In this document: positions 2,742 to 18,423 of the stretch, in pieces
How positions within the stretch are numbered: position 1 is the stretch's first letter
Layout of the letters: the number at the start of each line of letters is the position of its first letter
Virus record (IMG/VR): IMGVR_UViG_3300025695_000064
Location: 1 to 31,112 of that record
Source: a virus
Reading direction: 5' to 3' (one strand)
Length of the DNA stretch: 31,112 bases
Notes under the pieces: model-generated
The model's database searches: none
Seen by the model: only the letters and a program-made list of their open reading frames with translations
Told to the model about the DNA's origin: nothing
Translations under genes and position numbers: made by a program

Positions 2742-5700
2742 TTATACCTTTAGCTTCTGATTTATTTGAAGTTTATCAGGGTCTGTAATAGAGTTCTTTT
2801 CAATTAAGTCTTTTAAATCTACGCCTACTTTCTCAGCAATCTTACTAAGACTATCGCCCTTCTGAACAATATACTCTGTAGTATCACCTATCTTACGTAA
2901 ACCACTTTCAACTTCTTGAGAATCTATCTTACCTAAATTCAATGTAACCTTAGCTCCAGTTCCGGGTGCGCTTCCTAAGTTCTTTGCAATTACATTGCGC
3001 ATCCAATGGTATGCTCCTTTATCTTCTTTGATTGCTTCTACTGCATCCTTTAAGAAGTTAACCCCTCTATATACTCCAGTAGCATCATTGAAGTCATACT
3101 CATCTTCTACTATTACATTGCCGTCATCATCTACATTGAAACGCGCACGTCCGATTAAAGTCTTCATGCTGTATAGAGGCTCAGCTACACCACCGAATAC
3201 TTTCTCAGCAGCATTATCAGCATTGTCTCTAATGTTTGCTGTCTTTTCTTTGTCGTACTTAAAGTCTCCTTGTAAGTCTGACTGTGCGCTTGCGCCCTTC
3301 TCAACGTTTAAGTAATCTTCATATGTGATATAGTCTCTTCCTTCACGCATCGCTTGCATTACTGTTGCGCGTAGAGCTTCTTTTTCTTTATTATTTAGAA
3401 TACTTTCATCAATATCAGGCTTCATGCTTTGAGGTAAGAAAGAAGTAGCAACATCCCGTACTATCCCTTGTACGTTTGCAGGAACAAGAGAATCAAAGAA
3501 TCCGTCTGGTCTTTCTTCTTTCTGTTCAACTACAATAGGAGCTTCTTTTTCTTCAGGCATTCTTACAGGCTCTGGCGCAGCTTCTTCTTGTTGTTCTTGC
3601 ACCGGATTAAACTTAAGCTTTTGTCCTGCGTATATTTTATCTGCGTCTTCAATTGCATTAAGCTTTTGAAGTTCTTCAACAGTAGTATTATTTCTTTCTG
3701 CAATAGAACTTAAAGTATCTCCTGATTGAATAACATAACCGCCTTCAAAGAATGCGCTACGCTCTCCTTCATCTCTAAGATTAAAGTTAGAGAAAGATTT
3801 AAACTGCTGAGGTTCAAAAAGAATATAAGAATACTCTTCTTCATTAGGCATTGAACGTTCTTTAACATTTTTATATTTAATAGAATCAAAGCCTAGTGAT
3901 TTTAACCACTCTCTAAACTCAACATTAATCTGAGCTTTAATTACATCCTGTTTAAAATCAAGTAAACGTTTATCAAAACCATCATCAAAAGATTCAGCTT
4001 GTAATTCAAGTAAAGTACTTTGTAAGTTGTTTACTTTATCTAAACCTTTTTTAATTTCAGAAAGACTCTTGCCTGCTTGCTCTGCAATGTCATCTTCAAT
4101 AAAATGCATTAAGTCTATTGAGTCATCCTGTCCCATAAACATAATATCTTCAGCTTCAAAAGTATTAAACTGCGAAACAACATCTTCGTCTTCTAAGACT
4201 AGAGGCTTCTTAATATCAATATAACCTTTAGTAATAGAAACAGGAGCATCACTAGATTGTATCTCAGAAAATAATCTATCATACTCTGACTTAGCTACTG
4301 TTGATTGACCTGCAATCTGTGAGAACTTATCAGCATCGGCAGCCAATAAAGCCATCTGTGCTGCTTGACCTTCTGTTCCAACATGTACACCTATCTCTCT
4401 TGGCAATGCAAATGCAATATCATAGTCTAAGTCTTGGTATTCGCTAACCGCACGATAGACAGGGACTTTAACCGCAGAATCTTTTGTAAATTCTTTTGGA
4501 GAAATAAGAGTACTTTCTTCTGCTAACTCCTCAAACATATCTGAAGGTTTAGTAGATGATGGGAATGTATTTAATATACGCTCCAAAGAATCTTTAAGTC
4601 TTGCATCTTCTTCTATTTCTTTTAGGTAACGACTAGCATAAGCATCTACACCTTCTGGAGAAAGTAGTTTACCCTCATCCTTTTTAGATAATTCATTTTT
4701 AATATAATCATAAACAGAAGTATCTTTATTTTTAGGAGTAACTGCCTCTGGTCTATGTCCACCAAGCTTAGCATAAGCATCGCGTAACTCACTCATAGCA
4801 TTGATTGTATCAAAAGAAATACCTAAATCAGGGTCTATTTCTTCTTCAAGTTCTTGGCGCAATGCATTGGCTTGTATCTGTTGCTCAGAGAATCCTTTAG
4901 ATTTTAAGAAAGCATCATAGTCTTCTGTGTCTACTAGCTCAGCAGTTTTTTTAGAGTGTTGTATATCTGCAAAGTCAGTAACAATTAAAGATTCTAAATA
5001 CTCTTCCATCTCCATATCATCAGGAACATCAAGCATATCTCCATCAAGTGTACGCTCATATGTTTCTTCTATTGCTAATTCTAAAGCTTCATCATCTTCA
5101 AAGCCTTGGATTTTATTAGCTGTGCGTGTAACAACATCAGGACTAAACACATTACCAGTAGCGTCATCAATAACTTTAGCTAAACCAGTAACGGCTTTAC
5201 CTACAAAACCGCCAACAGCGAACTGCTGTCGAGATGCCTGCATGTTATACGGTAAGCCTGTCATTTTATCTATGCGTGTAGATGGGTCTAAAGGTGCTTG
5301 AGGTACAGGTAAGTCTACCTTACCGCCTTCAAAAAAGTTTTCTCTTCCGTAGTTGCTTGGAAACTGTGGCGTGAGTTTCTTTTTAAGTTTTTTATCTGTC
5401 TTCTTTAAAAACTTTCTGTAGTTATCCATAGCATCTTCACCAAGAACTAGCTTACCTGCAGCATAGCCCGGTACTTTTTGACCTACGGTTTCAACAACAG
5501 AACTATTCATTAGCTTACTGACGTCTCCGCCAACAACACCTAAGAATGCAAGAGGTGCAGTAGCATAACTCTGAGAGTACATCGCTGTATCTCTAGCCCT
5601 TTCAACTAAGTCAAAGAATAAACCATTACCGCCCCAACGCTTAATAGCATCCCAGTTAGGGTTCTCGGCTTCTTCACTTTCGCCGTTAGTTCTTATGTAG

Positions 5701-8700
5701 TTAATTCCTCGCGCTGCTGCTGTGATAAGCATACCATTCATTATAATTGGAACAGCTTGCTTCTTATCTTTAGATACAGTCTTAGCCATATTCTTCAATA
5801 CAGTATTTGTAAATGCGGCAGGATAAGACATCAGTTGGAACAACCAAGCAGACTTTGGATTACTCATCCATTTAGATTTTAACCCAGAAGTAGATGTTGT
5901 TTGGAGTATTACTTCATTGGTAAAGCGCGTAGCACCGCCGAGTATTTCTTCATAGAAAGCATCCTCTGTTTTTGCACCGCCCTTAAACCAATTTACCGCT
6001 TTATCTACATCAATACCTAGCTCTAGCAACTCATCTATTTGTTTCTTAGAGCGACTTGTTGTGCCTGCTTTTGCACCTAGCTCTGCTAGTTCTTTTATAT
6101 TTTCATGAATTAGATTTTTACCAGAATAAAAAGAAGTTGCTTGTGCAAACTTTGTCCACTGGTCTAAGAGAGTTACCTTAAAGAAAGCATTACTTGCTTT
6201 TTGCATTCCTTCTGTGGCTAACTCTTCGCCTGATAATCTATTATCCATCTGAGCTAATCCCTGCTCAATAGCAATACCATGGCGGTTCATTTCGCGCCAA
6301 GCTTCTTCTGTAGTCATTCCAAACTTATCAATTAAGTCTTGATGCCCACGCTTAAATACTCTCTTAAAGCTTAGTTCAGTCGCTGCCCCAAAACCTTTAA
6401 CAGAGTTTTGAACACCACCCTTGGTTATGTTTAACATTACCTCAGTTAAAGACGAAAGCGTAGCGAGTGGAAGATAAGCTAATCTATTCATTAAACCATA
6501 AGCATCTACGCCTATAGCTAATTTCCCTGTGAATCCTTCAAGCTCTTCCCCAGTTTGTGAGCGGTAAACATCTAACAAACGTTCTTGTTCTACTTTACTA
6601 AGAGGAGTTCCTCGACTTTCTAATACTTCTTTATTGATTCGTGCAATATATTTTTTATTAAATCCTTTTATATCACGAACACCGAAGGTTTGTACCTTAG
6701 CTAATGAACGAGAAGCCTGTGTAACATATTGCTGCATGCTAAGAACAACATCATCATTAATAAACTTAATGAATTCTGCTTCGTTTTCACTGGTAATATT
6801 ATTAAAGGTACGCTTAGCAGAAAAGAAATGTCCACCTGTTCCGGCGTCAATCTGATTCTTTTTATTCAACATTCCTGCTACAATTTGCTGAGCGTCTTCA
6901 ATGCTTTTAGCTTCTTTATGCTTAACTAACAGTGCGGCAAACTCATCTTGATTTCTTTCAAGTGCGTTTCTATTCCACATACGAGGAACATAGTCTTCAA
7001 GCTTATGTTTAATTATTCCTGCATCTTTTAAAGCAGTACCCATTTCTGAGTATAGTTCTTTAATTCTAAGCGCTGCAGCATTAACTGCTTTTGATTCTGT
7101 TTTAATTCCACGTAAGGCATTGTTCAAAGAAGTATTTACTGCAGAATCAAGAGTACCATCCATTCGATTCTTAGCAATTTCTTCTACACTGACTTTAAAT
7201 TTCTCAAAGTAATTACCTTGAATTATCTGTTGATTCTCAAAAAAGTCTTTAGCAACAGCCCCTGCTTCTTTTGTTTTCTGTTTAAAGCCTTGTGCAAACT
7301 CATGAGCAAACAAACCTTGTAGTTTCTTAGCCGTAGGAGACATATCAACATAAGGAGAGAAAGAACCTGCAGCTTTACCTACGCTCTTTGCGGTAGCTTC
7401 GCTAAACAAGATTTTCATTTTGTGTGCAAAGTTAGCTCTAGGGTTAGGAGTTTGAGAAGCTACAATTGCAGCATGCTCAACCTCTTCCATTGTTGCCTTG
7501 CCTCCACCTACAGCTTTTACAGCTGATTGCACAGCAGGGCTTTCAACAATAGCCTCAGGAGTTTCTACATCTAAATCATCAATAATTTTAGGATTATAAA
7601 TAACATCATCTATTACAGGAGTTTCAATACCTGCTTTACTTAGAGCAACCTGCTCAGATTCAGAAGGAGTCTCTCCCTTAAGTAGTTTTAAACGTCCTTG
7701 TTCGATGCGTGATAACTCTGCTTCAGCTTTAGCGGCTTCTTCATGCGCATCTATTTTTGATTGTAGTGCATCTAACTTGTTTTGTTTTTCTTGTAATGCT
7801 TCTTTCTTTGCTGCTCTGCCTTTAGTTCCTTTTTTATTTACAACTAAGGGGCTTTTCTCTAAGGCTTCTTTTTCATCTAATAGATTTAGATACTCATCTC
7901 TTTTAAGTTTATTTCCTGAGGCAGAAGTAAGTGTAGAAAGATAATCAACATCACCCTCCACAGTAACAGTATCATCTTTAGGTGTAAAAGTTTTAACAGA
8001 CTTACGCGCTGACTCTGCGCCCTTAGCTTCTGCACGTTCTGCAGCTCGTCTCTGTTGTCGAGATGTAAATAAAGCTTCTGATTTTGCAAGCTCTTCTTCA
8101 GGAACACTAGCAGTAGCTGTAGGCGAAGTCTCATCAAGAGCATTGACTGCTTTACGTGTTGAAAGATTGTTTAATAATTTAGTTGCGCCTGCACCTGCTA
8201 CAGCAGATAACCCTGTAACAGCAGCGGTTTGTAATGGATTGTATTCTTCTCTTTCATCTAAAGATATTTCTAAACCTTGTGAAGATAAATCACTTAGTCC
8301 ACCAAAAACTCCGGTGTAAGCACCTGCAGTCTTAGCATTACTTGTAGTTAATACACCTCCTGCTTTTGTTAATGCTTGCTTAAGAGCTTCTCTTGCGCCT
8401 GCTTTTACCGTTGTAGTGCCTGCCGCAGCTGTACCGCCTGAAAAAATAGTAGCAGCTACAGTAGCAATTGTTTCTGGGTTAACAATAACATCAGTACCAT
8501 AGTCTGCAAAAGCATTAAGATACTCTCCAACGCCTGTTACTTCAGCATCTGCAAACTTAGAACGAAGTTTACGATAAGCTTCTTTTACATCTTCAGGAGC
8601 ATCTGAAACCATCATTGCACGATTAAACATTGTACCTATGCGGATGTTCTCATCTCGTAAAAACTCAACAGGGTCGGTATCGCCTGTAGTAGAAAAATCC

Positions 8701-8957
8701 AATAGTCCAGAAAGAGATTCATTTTCATTCATATATCCAATTACTTTTTCAAAGTTTTGAATATTCTCTTCGTCGTTTCTAAAATCAGTTACTGTTTGTG
8801 GCTTTACTCTTTTTAATTCTGCAAGATAGTCATCTGAGATTTCTATTTCAGGTTTAGTTTCTTTTTTCTCAAAGGTCTGTAGTTTATTGGGCGCATCTTT
8901 AAATGTAACAGATGCAAGCTCTTTTTGAAATTGGTCTAAATCTAATTCATAAGCCAT
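2742..8957 (-). CDS. Giant multidomain virion protein with LysM and ADP-ribosyltransferase-like modules
   Basis: A 2071-residue protein, probably packaged in the virion and ejected, of the polyvalent/large internal virion type. The order I see is as follows. An acidic N-terminus is followed by a segment (about 140-265) typical of large phage virion proteins, with Ala/Gly-rich hydrophobic helices. A Lys/Glu/Ala coiled-coil stretch covers about 290-430, and a long helical core about 500-1200 includes YVPRMWNRNAL. Three xxGGxV junctions lie near 1207, 1245 and 1733. A module at about 1495-1725 resembles ADP-ribosyltransferases of polyvalent proteins (VYRAVS, GVHVGT..QAA, LFEPQQFKSFSN). A LysM domain spans about 1738-1783, then comes a linker and a DG..V.DEYDFN region near 1960, and a second LysM at about 2028-2071. 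LysM binds peptidoglycan. I see no transglycosylase motif. GAGGAGG precedes the ATG at 8957. Confidence 0.85.
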   Translation of the reverse strand: MAYELDLDQFQKELASVTFKDAPNKLQTFEKKETKPEIEISDDYLAELKRVKPQTVTDFRNDEENIQNFEKVIGYMNENESLSGLLDFSTTGDTDPVEFLRDENIRIGTMFNRAMMVSDAPEDVKEAYRKLRSKFADAEVTGVGEYLNAFADYGTDVIVNPETIATVAATIFSGGTAAAGTTTVKAGAREALKQALTKAGGVLTTSNAKTAGAYTGVFGGLSDLSSQGLEISLDEREEYNPLQTAAVTGLSAVAGAGATKLLNNLSTRKAVNALDETSPTATASVPEEELAKSEALFTSRQQRRAAERAEAKGAESARKSVKTFTPKDDTVTVEGDVDYLSTLTSASGNKLKRDEYLNLLDEKEALEKSPLVVNKKGTKGRAAKKEALQEKQNKLDALQSKIDAHEEAAKAEAELSRIEQGRLKLLKGETPSESEQVALSKAGIETPVIDDVIYNPKIIDDLDVETPEAIVESPAVQSAVKAVGGGKATMEEVEHAAIVASQTPNPRANFAHKMKILFSEATAKSVGKAAGSFSPYVDMSPTAKKLQGLFAHEFAQGFKQKTKEAGAVAKDFFENQQIIQGNYFEKFKVSVEEIAKNRMDGTLDSAVNTSLNNALRGIKTESKAVNAAALRIKELYSEMGTALKDAGIIKHKLEDYVPRMWNRNALERNQDEFAALLVKHKEAKSIEDAQQIVAGMLNKKNQIDAGTGGHFFSAKRTFNNITSENEAEFIKFINDDVVLSMQQYVTQASRSLAKVQTFGVRDIKGFNKKYIARINKEVLESRGTPLSKVEQERLLDVYRSQTGEELEGFTGKLAIGVDAYGLMNRLAYLPLATLSSLTEVMLNITKGGVQNSVKGFGAATELSFKRVFKRGHQDLIDKFGMTTEEAWREMNRHGIAIEQGLAQMDNRLSGEELATEGMQKASNAFFKVTLLDQWTKFAQATSFYSGKNLIHENIKELAELGAKAGTTSRSKKQIDELLELGIDVDKAVNWFKGGAKTEDAFYEEILGGATRFTNEVILQTTSTSGLKSKWMSNPKSAWLFQLMSYPAAFTNTVLKNMAKTVSKDKKQAVPIIMNGMLITAAARGINYIRTNGESEEAENPNWDAIKRWGGNGLFFDLVERARDTAMYSQSYATAPLAFLGVVGGDVSKLMNSSVVETVGQKVPGYAAGKLVLGEDAMDNYRKFLKKTDKKLKKKLTPQFPSNYGRENFFEGGKVDLPVPQAPLDPSTRIDKMTGLPYNMQASRQQFAVGGFVGKAVTGLAKVIDDATGNVFSPDVVTRTANKIQGFEDDEALELAIEETYERTLDGDMLDVPDDMEMEEYLESLIVTDFADIQHSKKTAELVDTEDYDAFLKSKGFSEQQIQANALRQELEEEIDPDLGISFDTINAMSELRDAYAKLGGHRPEAVTPKNKDTSVYDYIKNELSKKDEGKLLSPEGVDAYASRYLKEIEEDARLKDSLERILNTFPSSTKPSDMFEELAEESTLISPKEFTKDSAVKVPVYRAVSEYQDLDYDIAFALPREIGVHVGTEGQAAQMALLAADADKFSQIAGQSTVAKSEYDRLFSEIQSSDAPVSITKGYIDIKKPLVLEDEDVVSQFNTFEAEDIMFMGQDDSIDLMHFIEDDIAEQAGKSLSEIKKGLDKVNNLQSTLLELQAESFDDGFDKRLLDFKQDVIKAQINVEFREWLKSLGFDSIKYKNVKERSMPNEEEYSYILFEPQQFKSFSNFNLRDEGERSAFFEGGYVIQSGDTLSSIAERNNTTVEELQKLNAIEDADKIYAGQKLKFNPVQEQQEEAAPEPVRMPEEKEAPIVVEQKEERPDGFFDSLVPANVQGIVRDVATSFLPQSMKPDIDESILNNKEKEALRATVMQAMREGRDYITYEDYLNVEKGASAQSDLQGDFKYDKEKTANIRDNADNAAEKVFGGVAEPLYSMKTLIGRARFNVDDDGNVIVEDEYDFNDATGVYRGVNFLKDAVEAIKEDKGAYHWMRNVIAKNLGSAPGTGAKVTLNLGKIDSQEVESGLRKIGDTTEYIVQKGDSLSKIAEKVGVDLKDLIEKNSITDPDKLQINQKLKV

Positions 8958-8960
8958 TAA

Positions 8961-10502
8961 CTATCGTCCTCCTCTACGCATATCACGAGCTGTTAGCGGT
9001 GATTTATTTTTGTCTTTGTCATTTTCAAGGGGCTGAGGTTTTAAGTTATGCTTATTTAAGTAGTAATCTGTAACTGACATATTACCTGCTCTTGTAGGTA
9101 CAAGTTTAGATTTACTAAGAATGCGATAGTCTTCCATCCATTCTAATGCTGCAGTTTTTTGCGCTCTTGTTAGACTATCAAAGTTTCTTTCAAATTCTTC
9201 TGACTGTACTAAGCCTGCAACAAACTGAGCATTTTGTTTATTGTCTAAATCAAACACACCTTCTTTATAAAAGTCTTCTAATGCTGCAAGTGTAAGCACA
9301 GCACTAAACCCACTTTCTGTTTGAACAAGATTAAAGCCTTTTTCTTTTGTTTCGTATGTAAGCCCTATTTTTTTAGCTGCAAGAGGGATGCCTATTTCTT
9401 CTGAAAATCCAAAACGAGTTTTTAAATCATCGTTCACTAAACCTACTGCACCGTAGATTCCTTTTCTTATATTATCTAAAAGTTGTTTGTTAGCAGGACT
9501 ATCTTCATCTATGTTACCTAAACGCGCCTCATATATACTTTCTAGGTTATCTTTTGTAGAATCATCTGCAAACTCATTTACTAGGGTTTGGACTTGATAC
9601 GCTCTATCAACACCTGATGCTAATATTCTCTGGTCAAAACTTCTACTTGTGTCTGTATCTGAAAGAGGATTACCCTTTAAGTCAGTAGTCATTATTAACT
9701 CTCCGTTTTTCATATGGAGAATTGCGGTTTCTGTTACTTGTTCACCGTCGCTATTTGTACGAGTTACATTCTGTACTTTTTGTGTAGGAGGCGTATCTCT
9801 TAACTCTTGAGACTTAAACATTTTAGAAAGAGATAAAGAAACATTTGCATTTTTAGTCTGCTTAAACGCTTCATCAAAAGCATTAATTTGCTCAGCAGTT
9901 TTTAAATAACCCAACTCCTTTATAGCCTCTGCATCATTAGCTTCTGTGTCGCCTTCAAATAGAGTAGTTATTTCTCTACTTAGCTTACCACTAAGAGTTG
10001 TAGGATTTTGTTTTCTTAAAAACTTTTCGTATGTATCTGAACTTAAAGCGCCTTCGCTTTTAAATTTTTCACTTGCTTCTAAAAGCTGCTTATGTTGAGT
10101 CTGTAATTCTCTTGCCCGAGTTTGCGCCCAAGCTCCTTGAAGTCTTTTAACTTGACCGGGGTCTTTTCCTGTTAGGTATTGTTGAACAAAAGGTTGAGAC
10201 TCAGCTAAGGCTTGGTCTGTCCAATAGTTCTCATAACCGCCTTCATATGTCTCAGCTTGTTTTTGTCTTTGTTGAGTTTGTTCTAAGGTAGAGTATGCAT
10301 TCTTAAACGCTAATCTTTCTTGCAGTGTTTTCTCATTATTCATGAATTTAGTTGCTTGGCTTTCTAAATAAGCATTACCTATTTTACCAATCAACTTCCC
10401 TGCCATTCCTGCATACAGAGCATTACGCTGACGCTTTTCGTTTTCTTTAGTACGCTGACGCGCAGCCGTTAATAGACTTTCACCTACATTTTCAATACCC
10501 AT
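8961..10502 (-). CDS. Putative internal virion (ejection) protein
   Basis: A 513-residue, mostly helical, charged protein that I do not recognise as a named family. The N-terminus (about 5-55) has a basic amphipathic helix and a short Ala/Gly-rich hydrophobic helix (NALYAGMAGKLIGKIGNAYLE). A Gln/Glu/Lys-rich coiled-coil-like region follows to about 170. The C-terminal part is mixed, ending in basic LTARDMRRGGR. Its place between the 2071-residue protein and the 191-residue protein, in a run of large genes downstream of the fibres, is where podoviruses keep internal core proteins. The ATG shares one base with the upstream stop (TAATG). The ejection role is inferred from context and composition only. 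Confidence 0.65.
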   Translation of the reverse strand: MGIENVGESLLTAARQRTKENEKRQRNALYAGMAGKLIGKIGNAYLESQATKFMNNEKTLQERLAFKNAYSTLEQTQQRQKQAETYEGGYENYWTDQALAESQPFVQQYLTGKDPGQVKRLQGAWAQTRARELQTQHKQLLEASEKFKSEGALSSDTYEKFLRKQNPTTLSGKLSREITTLFEGDTEANDAEAIKELGYLKTAEQINAFDEAFKQTKNANVSLSLSKMFKSQELRDTPPTQKVQNVTRTNSDGEQVTETAILHMKNGELIMTTDLKGNPLSDTDTSRSFDQRILASGVDRAYQVQTLVNEFADDSTKDNLESIYEARLGNIDEDSPANKQLLDNIRKGIYGAVGLVNDDLKTRFGFSEEIGIPLAAKKIGLTYETKEKGFNLVQTESGFSAVLTLAALEDFYKEGVFDLDNKQNAQFVAGLVQSEEFERNFDSLTRAQKTAALEWMEDYRILSKSKLVPTRAGNMSVTDYYLNKHNLKPQPLENDKDKNKSPLTARDMRRGGR

Positions 10503-11077
10503 TATTCAACTGCTCCTTCTAGCTCTTCTGTTTCTGGCGGAGAAAGTAAGCTAGGCGCTTCAAAGTCTGGCAAAGCTTCAATCTTTTTTTGCATTTCTGG
10601 ATTAATAACATCTGATGGGATAGGTGCTTTTCCTTGAGATGCTTTTCTCATTTTTGCTAATTTTTCTTTTTCAAAGTTAACGCCTAATATTTTCTCGTCT
10701 TCAATAGCGTCTTCTTCTTCTCCATGATATATAACAGGGTCGATGTCTGCACGTTCAGCAAGCGCTAAGAACATATACGCAATAGGCTCAGCAAGAAGAA
10801 CCATCAAATCAGGAGTCCATTTTCCTTCAGTAAAGCCTTTAAACAATATACCTTGAACTAAATCCATAATAGGTACACCATCTGCAAGCGCAGTCATAGA
10901 AGTTATATAACGCTTTTCATCTAAGAGACGTCCAAAGATATATTCAGATGCCTCATAAATATCTGTAAACTCAGGAGGCTTCTCATAGGGCGCAGGATTA
11001 TCTGGGTCTGTTGTTAAACTCTGACCCGGAATTGGTCTGCCTTTAGATGTCATTACTTTTAAAAGTTCGTTGTCCAT
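10502..11077 (-). CDS. Conserved phage structural protein of unknown function
   Basis: A 191-residue acidic protein. The N-terminal half has a pattern I recall from hypothetical virion proteins of marine phages: PIPGQSLT near residue 16, PAPYEKPPEFTD near 28, a helix with EASEYIF, GVPIMDLVQGILFKGF, then GKWTPDLMVLLAEPIAYMFLALAERADID. The last stretch is hydrophobic enough to form a buried or membrane-associated helix. The C-terminal 60 residues are charged and Pro/Glu-rich. GAGG precedes the ATG. It lies in the ejection-protein block, and its stop overlaps the next ATG by one base. Exact role unknown. Confidence 0.7.
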   Translation of the reverse strand: MDNELLKVMTSKGRPIPGQSLTTDPDNPAPYEKPPEFTDIYEASEYIFGRLLDEKRYITSMTALADGVPIMDLVQGILFKGFTEGKWTPDLMVLLAEPIAYMFLALAERADIDPVIYHGEEEDAIEDEKILGVNFEKEKLAKMRKASQGKAPIPSDVINPEMQKKIEALPDFEAPSLLSPPETEELEGAVE

Positions 11078-11079
11078 TA

Positions 11080-12126
11080 TTAAATACCTCGCTTAGCAGC
11101 TTCAGCTTTATAAGTGTTATAGATGTAAGCATTAGCACCATAAGGAGCAGCAGACATATCAGAATAGTTTTCTTGATAATACTTAGTAAAATCTAAAGAA
11201 GGTGCAGACTGTACAGTAGGTGCAGCATCAATACTAGGCACATAAGTACTATAAGAATTATATACAGGTGTTGGAGTTTCTACGCCTGCCGCTGAATATA
11301 GTTCTTGTTTAGCACGTTGTTTAACAGCACCTTCTGCAGACTCTGCTATTGTGTTAGGAAGGTCTTCTAGTTTTCCAACTACTGCCTCACCTGCTTTTTC
11401 AGGAAGAGTCTTAATAGCTTCTATTCCTCGGTCTAATAACGAAGGAGTAGGCTTAGGTATTTCTAAAGCATCCATGTCAGGCGCGTTGAAAAAGGATTTC
11501 TCAGGAGTAGCTACAGAAAGTTCTGGAAGATTAGTGCCGGGCATACTAGGAGTGCCTACGCTTAACTGACTTTCTATATTTGAGGCAACGCCTTCAGTTG
11601 TAAGCTCTGTAGGGACTTCTGGACCTTTTGCAAGAGTATCTAATGTTTTTGCTGAAACAGCCTCAGTAGTTGTATTGAATACACTTCCATCAAAAAGCTG
11701 ACCTACTTTAGTACCAACACTATCAAAAGTCATTCCGGCTGTATCAAACCCAATAGACTTAGCTAAACCACCTAACTCTAGTTTATTTAGTGTAGCTCCG
11801 CCAACTTCTTTTAATACTCCAGTAACCCCATCTGTAATGTTGCTGAAAACTTTCCCTGCTTCGCTTCCAAACTTAATGGCTGTCTGCATCACTTTCCCTG
11901 CTGCATTTATAATCGTAGAGCCTACTCCTGTATACGCCGCCATTCCTCCGGCAAGCTGACTAAACATTGTGCCTATTCCCGGCATCAATAAAGATAATCC
12001 TATCTGTCCAACAATACCAATCTTACCCATGAACTTGCCAAATCCTTTGACAGTCGATTTAATTTTTTTACCAATAGACTTTAGACCTGTTCTAAAACCT
12101 TTAGCTATCTTAGAAAGAATACCCAT
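11080..12126 (-). CDS. Putative internal virion protein with hydrophobic N-terminal region
   Basis: A 348-residue protein. The first 35 residues are strongly basic and amphipathic, with repeated Gly-Lys pairs (KIAKGFRTGLKSIGKKIKST). A hydrophobic, glycine-rich stretch at about 36-75 (IGIVGQIGLSLLMPGIG and AGGMAAYTGVG) could insert into or cross a membrane. The middle is Gly/Thr/Val-rich, and the C-terminus is Tyr/Ala/Pro-rich, ending in a helix (NAYIYNTYKAEAAKRG). The combination of basic amphipathic and hydrophobic segments in the ejection-protein region suggests a part in forming the DNA channel across the cell envelope, but no family match supports this. A strong GGAGG site, located in the last codons of the upstream gene, precedes the ATG at 12126. 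Confidence 0.65.
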   Translation of the reverse strand: MGILSKIAKGFRTGLKSIGKKIKSTVKGFGKFMGKIGIVGQIGLSLLMPGIGTMFSQLAGGMAAYTGVGSTIINAAGKVMQTAIKFGSEAGKVFSNITDGVTGVLKEVGGATLNKLELGGLAKSIGFDTAGMTFDSVGTKVGQLFDGSVFNTTTEAVSAKTLDTLAKGPEVPTELTTEGVASNIESQLSVGTPSMPGTNLPELSVATPEKSFFNAPDMDALEIPKPTPSLLDRGIEAIKTLPEKAGEAVVGKLEDLPNTIAESAEGAVKQRAKQELYSAAGVETPTPVYNSYSTYVPSIDAAPTVQSAPSLDFTKYYQENYSDMSAAPYGANAYIYNTYKAEAAKRGI

Positions 12127-12129
12127 TAT

Positions 12130-15126
12130 TTAACCTCCAAAAAAGATTTCATCAATCATAGTTACAACAGATTGTGTACTTGTGCCTGCGTTCTTTGCCG
12201 CAGCAGCTTCATTACCAATAGCAGTAGCATACAATTGAGTTTTACGAGTTTGCTCATTCTCATAACTTTGTCGAACATAAGCAGCTTCATCTCTTAATTC
12301 TTGAGCTAAGAGTTGCATTTCAGCTGCGCTTAAGTTAGCTGCATTTGCAGCATTCTGTCTATTGGCAGCATTCTGGGCAGCAGTATTAACAGTGTTCACC
12401 TGTCTTTGCCATGCAACATCTGCTTGCTCTATAGCTTGTTGGTTAGCAACATTAAATTGATTACGCTGTTGTTCTAAATCAGCATTAAACATATTTAACT
12501 TTTGTTCCATCTCTGCATTAGCCATAGAAACTTGAGTAGCATTTTGTGCGTTTTGCGCCGCTGCTCTATTTGCTTCTGCAGCATTAAACTGCGCTAAAGC
12601 ATTTTGTTGTGTAGCATTGTATTGACTTACTTGCACAGAAAGGTTTTTATTAAACTGGTCTGCTTGTTGTTGGTTAGCCGCATTAAACTGACGAGCTGCA
12701 TTCTCAGCCGCTTGATTTGATAGCATTGTTTGTTGCTGTTGTTGTTGATTCAATACTGTCATTTGCTGTTCGTTGCTTAAGTTTTGCATATCCATTTCTA
12801 AGAATGCTTGAGCATTTTGAACTGCAATACGTTCTTGCGCGTTAAGGTTAGCAATATCCATACTTGCTTGTGCTGTAGCGTTTTGTAAGATTGCTTGCTG
12901 TTCAGCATTAAAATCTTCAATAGCCATTGTTTGCATAAACTTAGAGTTAGCTAGTTCAACTTGCTGAGCTGCATCGAACTTTGCCATATCTATATTAGCA
13001 ACTGTTTGAGCGTTAACAACTGCACGTTGTTGGTCAGCATTTAACTGCGCTCTATTCATCTCACCTGCAATCTGTGCTTGAAGAAGATTTGTTTCCATCT
13101 TCGCGTTTAAGTTTGCAAGTTCTGTTTGCTGTGCGGCGTTTAAGTTATCTGCACTTGCATTGTTCAATGCTGTCAAATTTGCAAGACGCATCTGCTGTTC
13201 GTTATCTAAGTTTGCAAGGTCCATCTGCTGTTTAAATGCAGCATTCTTAGCAAGAAAATCTGCCGCAACATTCATCTCAGCTAAACGTCTTTGGTTCTCA
13301 GCACTCATGTTTTCAGAATTAACACGCGCCTCAATCTCTAAGTTAGCAAGTTCTGTCTGCTGTTCATTCCCTAGATTCTGTGAGTTTGTTTCTTGTTGCA
13401 TCAATGCATTTGTGCGCGAAGCTTCTTGACGATTCTGAAGATTAGCAAGTTCCATATTTTGCGTTACATCTACAGTCTTCATTCCTGATTCTTGTTCAAA
13501 CTGAGACTGCAAGACTTTCATCTGCTGAGACATTTGAGCTGTCTGAGATGCAGCATCTTGGCGATTAGCTAAGTTCTGTAAACGTAACTGCATAGAGTTA
13601 GTCGCTTGCGTTATATTAGCTTGTTGTTGATTAGACAAGTTCTGAGACGAACGAGCTTGTAACGCTTGTGCATTGCTTTGCGCCATTGGTAATGCTGATT
13701 GAATAATACTATTAAACAATGCATCACGACCAACGGAAGATGCAGAAAGACCTCGCATTGCCATTTGCTGATTAACTGAATCAACAGCTGCTCTTGCCCA
13801 TGTAGGAATCTTTCCGTCTTCTAGACCACCTAGTAATGATTCCATCTGAGAAGAAACAAGCGCTTCAGAAGGAAGAGCCGCAATAGCTGCACGTACTTCA
13901 ACAGGCTTAGTGTCTAACTGTGCTGTTACAGTTGCAGGGTCTTCTACAATTGTAACGGCAACATCTTCAGGAATTGCACCTACTTCTGCAAGCATAGAAG
14001 CAGCAGCACCTTTAGCTGCCTCACCTTTAACAGGTCTAGCCTTAGCAGCTTCATAGCCAACAGTACCGATAATCTGAGTTGCGGTAGCATCATCAGCTGC
14101 AGTACCTGTAATTGCTTCACGTTGTTTTGCTTCAATCTCAGGGGTTTCAGCTACCTCTGCGATTTTTCCTGTAACTTCATCTACAAAGGCATCAGCAGAA
14201 ATATCATAATCTACTGTGCCTGCCATAGCTGCTTGTTCAGCCGCAGTGTCTCTTTCAGCTTTTGTAGCAAGATTAGTTAACTGACCTTCTTCTATGCTTG
14301 CAAGAGATTTGTCTGAAACTGTTCCGGTTACTGCTGTGCCGGGAGCTGCTCCTGTAGTCTTAACTGCATCTACTGTTACAGCATCTACACTTTCAGGTGC
14401 ATCTACAGTAGCTGCTTCTCCTACTTGCTGTGCAGTAGTTTGAGTTGCTTCAGCTTTAGTTGTTGCTTCTACATCTGTTCCTTCTAGAGTATATACTTTT
14501 GAAGCAGGTACGCTATCAGCTGAAATTTCTTCTACCTCTACATCATTAGTTTGAGTTTTAAGCTCTTCAAGACGTGCTTCTTTTTCTGCTAGTTCTTCTG
14601 CACTTAAACGCGGAGCGTCTGAATCTTTGTTAGCATTTTCTGACAGTTGAGTAAATAAACCACCTCTATTGCCTCCTCCGCCTCCAGTACTTCCAGATAC
14701 AGTCGAACCGCCTCCTCGTGCGCCTCCGTCACCGGGTAAGCCTTGACGTCCTAAAGGATTAATTCTATCGTCGTCTTCGTATTCTACTACTCTTTGGTCG
14801 CCTGCCATCGGCTCTTCTCCATTCGTGTTGTTGGTTGTCGTAGTGTCTTTAACACCCGGTCCGCCTGCGTCTGGGTCTTTAGTTCCGGGTGTTGTAGGTG
14901 TTTTACTACCACCACCTGTTTCTACGCCGCCAACGCCTGATTGTTTTGTGGTTGAGTTAGAAGGTTCTACAGTAGGAGCTTGAGCTTTTCTACTGTCTGT
15001 TGGAGTCTTAGGCGCTTGTTTTGTTGCTTGACGTCCTGTGGTGCGTGGTTCATTAAACACTTCTTCTTCTGCTCCACCTCTAAGCGCAACACCACCTGTT
15101 CGTCTTTGTATTCTTTTTCTACTCAT
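12130..15126 (-). CDS. Large virion protein with Gln/Asn/Ala-rich 22-residue repeats
   Basis: A 998-residue protein in three parts. Residues 1-170 are low-complexity and probably disordered, with Thr/Pro/Gly-rich runs including Gly-rich stretches. Residues about 170-460 are acidic and Ala/Thr/Val-rich with no cysteines. A conserved-looking helix-turn block follows at about 440-490 (PTWARAAVDSVNQQMAMRGLSASS), which I remember from other marine phage virion proteins. Residues about 490-975 are a very long predicted helix rich in Gln, Asn, Ala and Leu, with a regular 22/33-residue repeat at 586-805. The protein sits between the small virion protein at 15138 and the ejection-type proteins, so an elongated internal or tail-associated structure is likely. 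A stretched coiled coil is my inference. Start context is weak (TAGGT). Confidence 0.75.
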   Translation of the reverse strand: MSRKRIQRRTGGVALRGGAEEEVFNEPRTTGRQATKQAPKTPTDSRKAQAPTVEPSNSTTKQSGVGGVETGGGSKTPTTPGTKDPDAGGPGVKDTTTTNNTNGEEPMAGDQRVVEYEDDDRINPLGRQGLPGDGGARGGGSTVSGSTGGGGGNRGGLFTQLSENANKDSDAPRLSAEELAEKEARLEELKTQTNDVEVEEISADSVPASKVYTLEGTDVEATTKAEATQTTAQQVGEAATVDAPESVDAVTVDAVKTTGAAPGTAVTGTVSDKSLASIEEGQLTNLATKAERDTAAEQAAMAGTVDYDISADAFVDEVTGKIAEVAETPEIEAKQREAITGTAADDATATQIIGTVGYEAAKARPVKGEAAKGAAASMLAEVGAIPEDVAVTIVEDPATVTAQLDTKPVEVRAAIAALPSEALVSSQMESLLGGLEDGKIPTWARAAVDSVNQQMAMRGLSASSVGRDALFNSIIQSALPMAQSNAQALQARSSQNLSNQQQANITQATNSMQLRLQNLANRQDAASQTAQMSQQMKVLQSQFEQESGMKTVDVTQNMELANLQNRQEASRTNALMQQETNSQNLGNEQQTELANLEIEARVNSENMSAENQRRLAEMNVAADFLAKNAAFKQQMDLANLDNEQQMRLANLTALNNASADNLNAAQQTELANLNAKMETNLLQAQIAGEMNRAQLNADQQRAVVNAQTVANIDMAKFDAAQQVELANSKFMQTMAIEDFNAEQQAILQNATAQASMDIANLNAQERIAVQNAQAFLEMDMQNLSNEQQMTVLNQQQQQQTMLSNQAAENAARQFNAANQQQADQFNKNLSVQVSQYNATQQNALAQFNAAEANRAAAQNAQNATQVSMANAEMEQKLNMFNADLEQQRNQFNVANQQAIEQADVAWQRQVNTVNTAAQNAANRQNAANAANLSAAEMQLLAQELRDEAAYVRQSYENEQTRKTQLYATAIGNEAAAAKNAGTSTQSVVTMIDEIFFGG
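12712..13371 (-). repeat. 22/33-residue repeats of the N-x-(E/A/D)-Q-Q type encoded in the 998-residue protein
   Basis: Residues 586-805 form tandem units that begin with a degenerate N/D-x-x-Q-Q anchor followed by E-L-A-N-L or similar. Unit starts fall at residues 586, 608, 641, 663, 696, 718, 740, 762 and 784. Spacings are therefore 22, 33, 22, 33, 22, 22, 22 and 22, all multiples of 11. The units are divergent in DNA sequence, so this is a protein-level repeat rather than a recent DNA duplication. Confidence 0.85.
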
Positions 15127-15137
15127 TTATTCTATAC

Positions 15138-15488
15138 CTATATATTCTGTACAATGTTGTTATATTCAATCACTGAAACAAGAATAGAAAAATTAGAACC
15201 TGTTTCTCCTCGAGCTTGGATTTTATCTCCTGCATTCATTATGATAAATTCATTTGCACCGCCACCAATTTGAAAAAAGTCTGTAGCGTTAATTTGATAG
15301 CCTTGAAGGATTGTTAGTGTTGCATCATTTGTAGAATCATAATAATCTACTTCAATTGTTTTGTTGTTGCTTGAATCGGGATTAGTAATAAACAGTAAAC
15401 ACCATTCAGTTCTAATTCCTTCAGGAACAGTATAGATATCTGTTAGTACATCTGCTGTTAATGATTTTGCAAAAGTTTTCTTTATCAT
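15138..15488 (-). CDS. Small beta-rich virion protein
   Basis: A 116-residue protein with alternating hydrophobic residues typical of a beta sandwich. Key segments are TDIYTVPEG near 16, FITNPDSSNNKTIEVDYYD near 34, a GYQINATDFFQIGGG turn, and NAGDKIQARGE followed by SVIEYNN near the end. The layout (YT.P, N..S.N, AGD, SV.E) closely parallels the 105-residue protein at 22085-22402, and I recall both types as hypothetical structural proteins in marine phages. It probably decorates the head or tail. Its ATGA start overlaps the holin stop by four bases. Placement beside the holin looks incidental to its function. Confidence 0.65.
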   Translation of the reverse strand: MIKKTFAKSLTADVLTDIYTVPEGIRTEWCLLFITNPDSSNNKTIEVDYYDSTNDATLTILQGYQINATDFFQIGGGANEFIIMNAGDKIQARGETGSNFSILVSVIEYNNIVQNI

Positions 15489-15862
15489 TTCTCTCTCGCT
15501 ACGCCTTTAAGTTTCTCCACGGTACGCATACCGCCAAGACCAAGTAATCCCATTAATACAGGCATTAACACATCAGCATTAACTGCAGGCATTTCGTACC
15601 AAATATCTAATATGGGATGAAGTAACACATTGTACAAAAGACCTACCGCACATATCCACATAATCGCCGGGCGTCCGCCTGCAACGAATAGAGACTTATG
15701 TGCTGCTTGTACTTTGTTTACGTCGATTTGTGCAATTGCGTTTTCATGTGCCTGACGCTCAGCAAGTGTAGCTATTTCGTGGGCAAGTTTGTTACGCTCA
15801 TCGGCGTTGGGAATAAACTTATCAAGAAGAGGGGCAATAGAACTTACAAGTAAATTAAGCAT
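15485..15862 (-). CDS. Holin of the GTA/three-helix family
   Basis: A 125-residue membrane protein resembling the holin family found in gene transfer agents (Holin_3TMs). The signature is clear: FVAGGRPAIMWICAVG at about 59-74, LLGLGGMRTVEK at about 106-117, and a closing GVAR. Hydrophobic segments lie at about 1-15, 66-85 and 97-112, with a charged helix between the first two (DERNKLAHEIATLAERQAHE). Holins accumulate in the inner membrane and open it at a set time, releasing the cytoplasmic endolysin; the lysozyme at 2310-2738 is the probable partner. The ATG shares one base with the stop of the XhlA-like gene (TAATG), so the two are probably translated together. Confidence 0.88.
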   Translation of the reverse strand: MLNLLVSSIAPLLDKFIPNADERNKLAHEIATLAERQAHENAIAQIDVNKVQAAHKSLFVAGGRPAIMWICAVGLLYNVLLHPILDIWYEMPAVNADVLMPVLMGLLGLGGMRTVEKLKGVAREK

Positions 15863-17022: not shown

Positions 17023-18423
17023 TTAATCTATTACTATTGTAATGCCGATATTGTAATCGCTTCCACTGGTATCAAACGCAGTGTAAAAACCACCTAGATT
17101 TTCTGTTGAGCCATGAGAATAATGCACAAATGCCGACATTATAGTTCCGCCATTACCACTAACGCCATAAGTGTCAAAATCTAGACCAGTGTAGCCCTGT
17201 GGGTTTCTATTTAGGGTCGCAATATCATCATCTAGAAAGCCAAGTGCAAGTACTAATTCACCGTTATTTGAAGCGGTCATAGTAGGTAGTGGTGTCGGTA
17301 TTGGGTCGCCACTGCTGTTTAAAGCATCATCAATAAACTTAAATGAGTTGTGACCCCTGATTACAAACCAATTTACTATCCCACTACCATCAGACCAGCC
17401 AAAACTACTTAGTGACTGAGTATCTCCACCTGTAGCTACCTTAGTATAAACACCTGCGCTGAGAGTAAATGAACTTCTATAATAGAACCTCTGAGTCCAT
17501 CCAGACGGGGTTGACTGTGAAGCTGAGTCAGCACCTAAAAACGCTACAAGTAAATCACCTGCCAAAGCACCCTCAAACTCAATTGTACCAGTGGATGTTG
17601 TACCATGCGATACAATCAAGGGAGCGTCTGGAGTCACGGATATTGATTCACTACCTACTGAGATTGTCCCAGTGGTTGTAAAGTCATTGCCGTTAGCTGA
17701 TTGGTCAGTACCTATATCTGATGTTTGAATATTTCTGAAACCAAAATTACCAACGTTTGAGTAAAATGTTGAATTAACTTGTGGCTCAAGTCTAGGGGAT
17801 ATTGTTCCATCCGAGTTAAAAGTATAAAATGACTCTGGTGGTTCAATATTATAATCACTAAAATCAATATAGTAACTATCGCCTATATTTACATTTGATA
17901 TTCTACCTGAAAATGTGTGATTTGCTTCATTAGGGCTATAAATATAGCACCCTAGCCCTATGTCATATCCGCTAATACCTATACTATTAAAGCTACTAAA
18001 CTGAGTCCCATAGCTTGGTAAATCTATCGGTTTTCCGTTAACATACATGGTTACATTTTTATTTGAGCCTGTGTGGTTAGAGACCATGACGTGATACCAT
18101 TGACCTGTCGATATTACGCCAGTGGCGGTTTGAAAGAAAGCCCACTCGCTTCCAGTTCTATTTACCGCTAGAACTAAACGACCATCTACGTCTGTTCTAA
18201 ACCCCATTCTTGGGTCAGTAGCAGAGCCATTTGATGAGCTAAGAATGTAGTTAGTTTCGGTTAAGTCATCAACATAAATCCATGCGCTAAACAAAAAGCT
18301 AGAATCAGAGTTATTGGCTGACTGCGTAAATGATAGGTAGTTATTCTGAGAGAACTCAGCCGTAACATCGCCTGATAAAGCCTCATCACTTTGCTTGGAT
18401 AGCAACGCCTTTGATAATTTCAT
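17023..18423 (-). CDS. Adhesin/tail fibre with LamG (concanavalin A-like) domain
   Basis: A 466-residue protein. Residues about 28-190 have the Laminin-G/ConA-like jelly-roll pattern: FSAWIYVDD near 45, a Asp-rich strand turn, GQWYHVMVSNHTGSNKN near 107, MYVNGKPIDLP, and FSGRISNVNIGD near 170. Such domains bind glycans. A linker with SFYTFNSDGTISPRLEP leads to a second beta-rich region at about 245-466 (GTTSTGTIEFEGALAGDLLVAFLG). The protein probably binds a surface polysaccharide of the host. The first 20 residues are a short helix (KALLSKQSDEALSG) that may dock it to a fibre. It is one of at least four adhesin-type proteins here. The ATG shares one base with the upstream stop (TAATG). Confidence 0.75.
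   Translation of the reverse strand: MKLSKALLSKQSDEALSGDVTAEFSQNNYLSFTQSANNSDSSFLFSAWIYVDDLTETNYILSSSNGSATDPRMGFRTDVDGRLVLAVNRTGSEWAFFQTATGVISTGQWYHVMVSNHTGSNKNVTMYVNGKPIDLPSYGTQFSSFNSIGISGYDIGLGCYIYSPNEANHTFSGRISNVNIGDSYYIDFSDYNIEPPESFYTFNSDGTISPRLEPQVNSTFYSNVGNFGFRNIQTSDIGTDQSANGNDFTTTGTISVGSESISVTPDAPLIVSHGTTSTGTIEFEGALAGDLLVAFLGADSASQSTPSGWTQRFYYRSSFTLSAGVYTKVATGGDTQSLSSFGWSDGSGIVNWFVIRGHNSFKFIDDALNSSGDPIPTPLPTMTASNNGELVLALGFLDDDIATLNRNPQGYTGLDFDTYGVSGNGGTIMSAFVHYSHGSTENLGGFYTAFDTSGSDYNIGITIVID

Follow-up and report, generated by a model that had tools for sequence, protein, structure and literature searches.

What kind of structure is built from the 11-residue repeat of a large viral protein, and what keeps that repeat in register? 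The question is raised by a 31,112-nucleotide stretch of viral DNA, positions 1 to 31,112 of IMG/VR record IMGVR_UViG_3300025695_000064 (hereafter the window), in which a minus-strand open reading frame (ORF; 12130-15126) encodes a 998-amino-acid (aa) product, a putative virion protein by its gene context. A sequence-only reading of the window had placed the repeat at 12712-13371, which matches residues 586-805 exactly, and had proposed a nearly straight or right-handed coiled coil acting as a ruler, channel or fibre. Here we report that the repeat comprises about 44 hendecads (11-residue units) in one register, double the stretch first reported, and that across the protein family the length of this rod changes almost only by whole 11-residue units. 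The parts of the rod protein are as follows.

12130..15126, minus strand: whole gene of the 998-aa hendecad-rod protein, defined by its ORF and relatives; without a Pfam, PHROGs or NCBIfam family.
14227..15126, minus strand: residues 1-300, variable N-terminal part of low complexity with abundant Gly, Thr, Ala and Glu, from composition and an unconserved alignment that is mostly gaps; probably disordered.
13654..13860, minus strand: residues 423-491, conserved N-terminal anchor domain (PxWA...RGLSxSS...LPIA), from a hidden Markov model (HMM) anchor in 441 frames and near-invariant alignment columns.
12409..13689, minus strand: residues 480-906, hendecad array from P480 to W906, in a single phase, with mod-11 z = 19.6 and length 426 = 8 mod 11.
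12712..13371, minus strand: residues 586-805, the mid-array stretch of the sequence-only reading, by coordinate conversion.
12454..12687, minus strand: residues 814-891, ladder of aromatic residues (F/Y) at hendecad position 5, from the residue pattern.
12304..12453, minus strand: residues 892-941, conserved anchor on the C-terminal side, with W906 in a W[RQ]R motif followed by NTA..N, from an HMM anchor.

The information linking residue type to position modulo 11 over residues 486-970 reached z = 19.6 against shuffles, and the other moduli from 5 to 24, 22 excepted, gave z values of about 0 or lower in the same region, with a value below 0 for modulus 7. Fourier peaks were found at 2.75 residues (11/4; power for N 43, with shuffles reaching 11.7 at most), the phase of Asn is constant from about residue 463 to 968, and in-phase repeats continue past W906 to about residue 968. 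The best 300-residue stretch for period 11 scored z = 19.8 in the rod protein and at most 3.2 in the other window proteins tested. The 11-residue period is stronger than had been claimed from the letters, and longer (about residues 480-970 instead of 586-805). The nine anchor residues listed in support of it are indeed spaced 22 or 33 apart; the N/D-x-x-Q-Q motif ascribed to them is present at five (641, 663, 696, 718 and 740), but the remaining four read GNEQQ (586), SAENQ (608), NAQER (762) and SNEQQ (784), and the literal copies at 793, 837 and 883, which had not been listed, are all off register.

Relatives were identified by tblastn in 23 phage records, from Pelagibacter, Roseobacter, SAR116 (HMO-2011), Vibrio (CHOED), Aeromonas, Pseudoalteromonas and Rhizobium phages, while scans of viral collections yielded several hundred loci and bacterial metagenome-assembled genome contigs 11 more. 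The family occurs in HMO-2011/CHOED-type podophages, abundant marine short-tailed phages; short tails have been described for the CRP phages (PMC6918029) and for MQM1, which has a capsid of 70.6 nm and a tail of 9.2 nm (PMC10410586). Searches with the 998-aa protein gave no Pfam, PHROGs or NCBIfam match, where the HMMER composition filters may hide weak ones; a search for a tape-measure profile left the window protein and 34 relatives without any PHROGs family, again with weak matches possibly hidden by the HMMER bias filter; and a profile search of the PDB gave no match for the family up to E = 1. The family is uncharacterised and uncatalogued; 11-unit helical phage rods as such are already known. 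One public record calls a member 'huntingtin' (L040:4996-7587; MW202701.1), probably a false annotation from low-complexity sequence. The rod proteins of HMO-2011 (phage1322_25; L035:7960-10080) and several relatives carry an additional C-terminal Cys/Trp-rich domain (CWVAREVYG...) that is absent from the window protein. A conserved membrane-inserting C terminus was considered for the family and dropped, since only 40% of 227 distinct C-terminal tails reach a mean hydropathy of at least 1.0.

For the comparison of lengths, the rod was measured in HMM-anchored proteins from the Pro of LPIA (P480) to the Trp of WRR (W906), using the seed HMM together with a T.NTA/W motif for members without the Trp; a broadened C-terminal anchor HMM was dropped because it was diluted by the repeats. 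A first set of 276 proteins contained 11 rod lengths, all equal to 8 mod 11. In the enlarged set, exactly the same remainder was found for 365 of 367 rods, which fall into 16 in-register lengths (151, 162, 173, 184, 217, 228, 239, 305, 316, 338, 426, 448, 536, 558, 668 and 778 residues). The two off-rule rods result from a single-residue insertion seven positions ahead of the Trp (L293) and from a two-residue loss (L327), and an apparent off-register length of 626 (L238 and its copies L331 and L441) is a motif mis-hit inside the array. As a control, the C-terminal tail beyond the Trp takes 53 lengths in the same proteins, distributed over all 11 classes. Many of the 367 proteins are closely related, so that sequences and events must not be equated; connecting the 16 lengths takes no fewer than 15 changes of length. 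In one locus (L164), an exact 11-residue deletion is seen relative to relatives that are about 90% identical.

Most of the long rods belong to two series with 110-residue (10-hendecad) steps, one of 228/338/448/558/668/778 residues and the other of 316/426/536 residues. Internal identity at a lag of 110 rises from about 16-28% in rods of 228-448 residues to 33-38% in those of 558-668 and 50-56% in those of 778 residues, and therefore the long rods appear to have grown as a 10-unit cassette was duplicated in tandem; the window's relatives with 426-residue rods lack a strong internal repeat of 110 residues. These observations bring in neutral repeat dynamics, in which unequal recombination of 33-nucleotide units gives 11-residue steps and the exact length has no role, an account that is compatible with any function of the protein and that we consider possible but rather unlikely. 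The cassettes at 50-56% identity do resemble tandem duplications, lengths jump widely between relatives, and the tape measure protein of siphophage TP901-1 tolerates alanines in place of one 11-residue unit (PMC5099701). However, the rod has almost no small insertions and deletions (indels; 2 of 367) against the 53 tail lengths of the same proteins, and for this reason the register is likely to be under selection, even if the total length is not. Recombination of units would account for the 11-residue steps, and the lack of other changes would need selection on phase.

To describe the faces of the predicted helix, residues were placed on a wheel of 98.18 degrees per residue with P480 as position 1, and a family profile was derived from 31 representatives. 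An alpha-helix with an 11-residue repeat has a turn of 11/3 (3.667) residues. At this period the hydrophobic power was 0.2 in the window protein and 0.00 of the harmonic power across the representatives; it is located at 11/4 and 11/5. On the wheel, the hydrophobic residues form two seams, at positions 7/11/4 and 5/9/2. On one side, the seams enclose a narrow stripe at positions 1 and 8, where 1% of the residues are hydrophobic and most are Gln, Ser, Ala or Asn; hydrophobic residues are almost absent from it in each third of every array. The opposite face carries Asn at 69% of positions 6 and charged residues at 41% of positions 10 and 34% of positions 3. From this pattern, each rod helix would pack against two neighbours.

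The seams bear on several helical architectures. Hydrophobic positions follow a period of 11 rather than 7, as had been expected from the letters, but at the harmonics 11/4 and 11/5 and not at 11/3. The earlier proposal of a nearly straight or right-handed, non-heptad coiled coil survives as a very long, straight, non-heptad helix and fails as a classical one-stripe hendecad coiled coil, which is ruled out by the zero hydrophobic power at 11/3 over the 31 representatives. A heptad coiled coil is also ruled out, with no hydrophobic power at 3.5 and a mod-7 z below 0, and a simple trimeric coiled coil is disfavoured because the hydrophobic residues make two seams instead of one. The 11-residue period and the long helix would equally suit an amphipathic 11/3 helix lying on a membrane, as in synuclein or apolipoproteins; such a helix requires a single continuous apolar face, and the zero hydrophobic power and moment at 11/3 reduce its probability to a negligible level and lead us to reject it.

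Single-chain AlphaFold models agree with a helical rod. A short relative (359 residues, 12-sequence alignment) was modelled with a single helix over model residues 83-275 (193 residues), the predicted local distance difference test score (pLDDT) being about 80-90 across most of the array and below 65 at its ends, and residues 380-998 of the window protein (35 sequences) were modelled with helices only (464-618, 664-714, 720-758 and 763-976). Strands are absent from both models, which rules out beta structure, and proline is absent after the anchor Pro in 367 of 367 arrays. A single uninterrupted alpha-helix bearing two packing seams is strongly suggested for the rod. A fold search of the PDB with the short-relative model returned nothing, a lone long helix being uninformative for such a search. 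The suggestion that the helix could be tens of nanometres long holds if it is straight, as 427 residues at 0.15 nm each give about 64 nm; for the 151-778 residues found in the family, straight rods would measure 23-117 nm.

The function of the rod has to be approached through its gene neighborhood, in which four minus-strand genes follow the rod gene.

11080..12126, minus strand: 348-aa next gene, with relatives in 15 loci and a length that differs between phages.
10502..11077, minus strand: 191-aa 'PIPGQSLT' protein, 37% identical to its CHOED counterpart.
8961..10502, minus strand: 513-aa gene that resembles a tunnel-type ejection protein in position and size, from gene order.
2742..8957, minus strand: giant protein of 2071 aa that has two LysM domains and occupies the place of gp16-type ejection proteins, from domain matches and order.

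Eight isolate phages and the genome of one environmental phage share the same order: the rod gene, any variable small gene or genes, and then genes for proteins of about 165-190 aa, about 365-650 aa and giant size. The most constant partner of the rod gene is the 191-aa protein, located downstream in 277 of the 293 loci where 2.5 kb or more of sequence was available; it has no Pfam, PHROGs or NCBIfam family, and the 513-aa protein gave no sequence match to its CHOED equivalent. The last three genes look like an ejection trio by size and order, on which, LysM aside, their assignment is based. In the short-tailed phages T7 and DEV, the ejection trios likewise consist of adjoining small, medium and giant genes, with products of 196, 747 and 1318 aa (T7 gp14/gp15/gp16) and of about 155, 521 and 3398 aa (DEV gp73/gp72/gp71) (PMC8954989, PMC10925440), and the ejection tubes of DEV are all-helical and about 25-35 A wide (PMC10925440). 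In contrast, the present phages have the rod gene as an extra one ahead of the trio, on its upstream side, and an 11-unit rod is not described for the T7 and DEV proteins (PMC8954989, PMC10925440).

The 348-aa protein, the most variable member of this block, has a Lys-rich cationic amphipathic N terminus (MGILSKIAKGFRTGLKSIGKKIKSTVKGFGKF) followed by an apolar Gly-rich stretch, and by these features looks like a candidate membrane-pore partner, a membrane-active or pore-forming ejection protein. In the 2071-aa protein the LysM domains lie near residues 1741 and 2027, and residues 1557-1724 weakly match a polyvalent-protein ADP-ribosyltransferase (E = 0.002, below the cut-off). A three-transmembrane holin (GTA_holin_3TM) is encoded at 15485-15862 on the minus strand, just upstream of the rod gene at a distance of one gene, with fibre-type genes on one side and the putative ejection block on the other. 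A 466-aa tail-region protein (17023-18423, minus strand) contains a laminin-G/concanavalin-like lectin domain at residues 25-146 and is a candidate receptor- or glycan-binding part.

This arrangement bears on whether the rod is the shaft of an external structure, namely a long multi-stranded helical tail fibre or whisker. A long helix without proline, a variable N-terminal domain and the fibre-type genes upstream in the same cluster would all suit such a shaft. The rod gene, however, is linked to the block of the 191-aa and giant proteins and not to the fibre genes, the two seams with zero power at 11/3 misfit a two- or three-stranded coiled coil, and the published relatives are described with short tails only (PMC6918029, PMC10410586), where thin fibres are easily overlooked. 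An external fibre is accordingly quite improbable.

Two further known systems offer comparisons. The tape measure proteins of siphophages gain or lose 11-residue units whole, set the tail length and help DNA entry (PMC3271669, PMC5099701). Like the rod family, these proteins are largely helical, vary by whole tandem 11-residue units and have aromatic residues 11 apart, and that of TP901-1 additionally contains membrane-like regions and takes part in DNA entry (PMC3271669, PMC5099701). Unlike them, the rod family has Asn/Gln-rich units strictly in one register and no 18-residue units, and while siphophage tape measures measure a long tail, the phages that carry the rod family are short-tailed (9.2 nm in MQM1). 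Pattern 1 of the siphophage proteins consists of seven F/W residues exactly 11 apart (PMC3271669); the longest F/W run in the rod family is six, at position 5 in 193 of 367 members, and that of the window protein is two, or four if Tyr is included.

The second system is protein H of phiX174, which forms a DNA-piloting decameric helical tube with three hendecads and with Gln, Asn and Arg lining the lumen (PMC7354561; PDB 4JPP). Protein H resembles the rod family in having hendecads (QKELTKMQLDN and others) in a long helix, and when they are placed on the family profile, the best rotation puts Gln on position 1. The pilot role is known for H and proposed for the rod. In H, three hendecads are followed by heptads and the virus is a single-stranded DNA microvirus, whereas the rod family has 14-70 hendecads. 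No sequence relationship between the rod family and H was found.

By analogy with H and the siphophage tape measures, and from gene order, we propose a pilot or ejection role for the protein, with a modular, tape-measure-like rod that forms a bundle or tube, a reading to which we assign a probability of roughly 0.45. Of the earlier choice between ruler, channel and fibre, this retains a tape-measure-like or pilot-like rod, which unit-wise length change and gene order favour, and disfavours the fibre. The pilot protein would be stored in the virion and released together with the DNA. Its two seams would join each rod to two neighbours in a bundle, sheet or barrel, not in a two- or three-stranded coiled coil, and the aligned helices would turn their narrow, uncharged stripe of Gln, Ser and Asn towards the DNA path, in the manner of the phiX174 H tube and of what has been proposed for siphophage tape measures. 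Because a stretch of 11 residues completes exactly three turns of the helix (11 x 98.18 degrees = 3 x 360 degrees), a unit could be added without turning one end of the rod relative to the other, and a change of 7 or 18 residues would break the seams.

Several results weigh against this proposal. In the window-protein model, pLDDT reaches at least 80 only near residues 840-960 and falls below 50 in the middle of the array; disorder, the prediction of which had been named as a refuting outcome for a coiled coil, is at odds with a model made almost wholly of helix, but may still apply to the middle of the array. The match of the phiX174 H hendecads is weak, with a permutation p = 0.011 for the lumen-fixed rotation and 0.11 with the rotation free. 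Profile comparisons with T7 gp14 and gp15 and with N4 gp51 and gp52 were negative (hhalign probability below 1% in all four). No virion proteomics, structure or infection data were found for any member of the family. Rod length did not correlate with partner-gene sizes or genome length in 10 phages. Repeat recombination in DNA alone favours unit-sized changes, without explaining the missing other indels. Finally, rods of 426-778 residues would measure 64-117 nm if straight, which exceeds any periplasm and equals or surpasses the only measured capsid, the 70.6-nm one of MQM1, whose own rod has 184 residues; therefore the long forms must fold back or act otherwise.

The last of these points would equally be expected of an internal core or DNA-organising protein, whose rods stay in the head, bundled or arranged round the portal or the DNA, without forming a conduit and with a length that matters for packing only. 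Proteins of this kind are usual in podophages; before ejection, 12 copies of DEV gp72 encircle the portal as a ring (PMC10925440), and long rods cannot stand straight in a head of 50-70 nm, so that folding is expected. Loose packing, however, needs no strict phase-locked length rule, and the rod has no loop-tolerant spots that collect odd indels, which makes a purely internal role an unlikely explanation. Within the pilot reading, a more specific version is a tailless tape measure, in which the length-coded rod, growing in 11-residue steps and 110-residue cassettes, would build an amide-lined, uncharged ejection tube, and the length of the conduit would be genetically set over an approximately fivefold range. 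We put this version forward as speculative, with the odds clearly against it.

The phase-locked length rule across 16 lengths is the part of these results that may surprise specialists. The 16 rod lengths in one register represent a natural series across existing isolates, and this series makes testable both a length-coded conduit in a podophage and the idea that helix phase rather than sequence is kept by selection. If the proposal is true, two known 11-residue systems, the siphophage tape measures and the phiX174 pilot tube, would be linked through the rod family by their way of working, even if not by descent.

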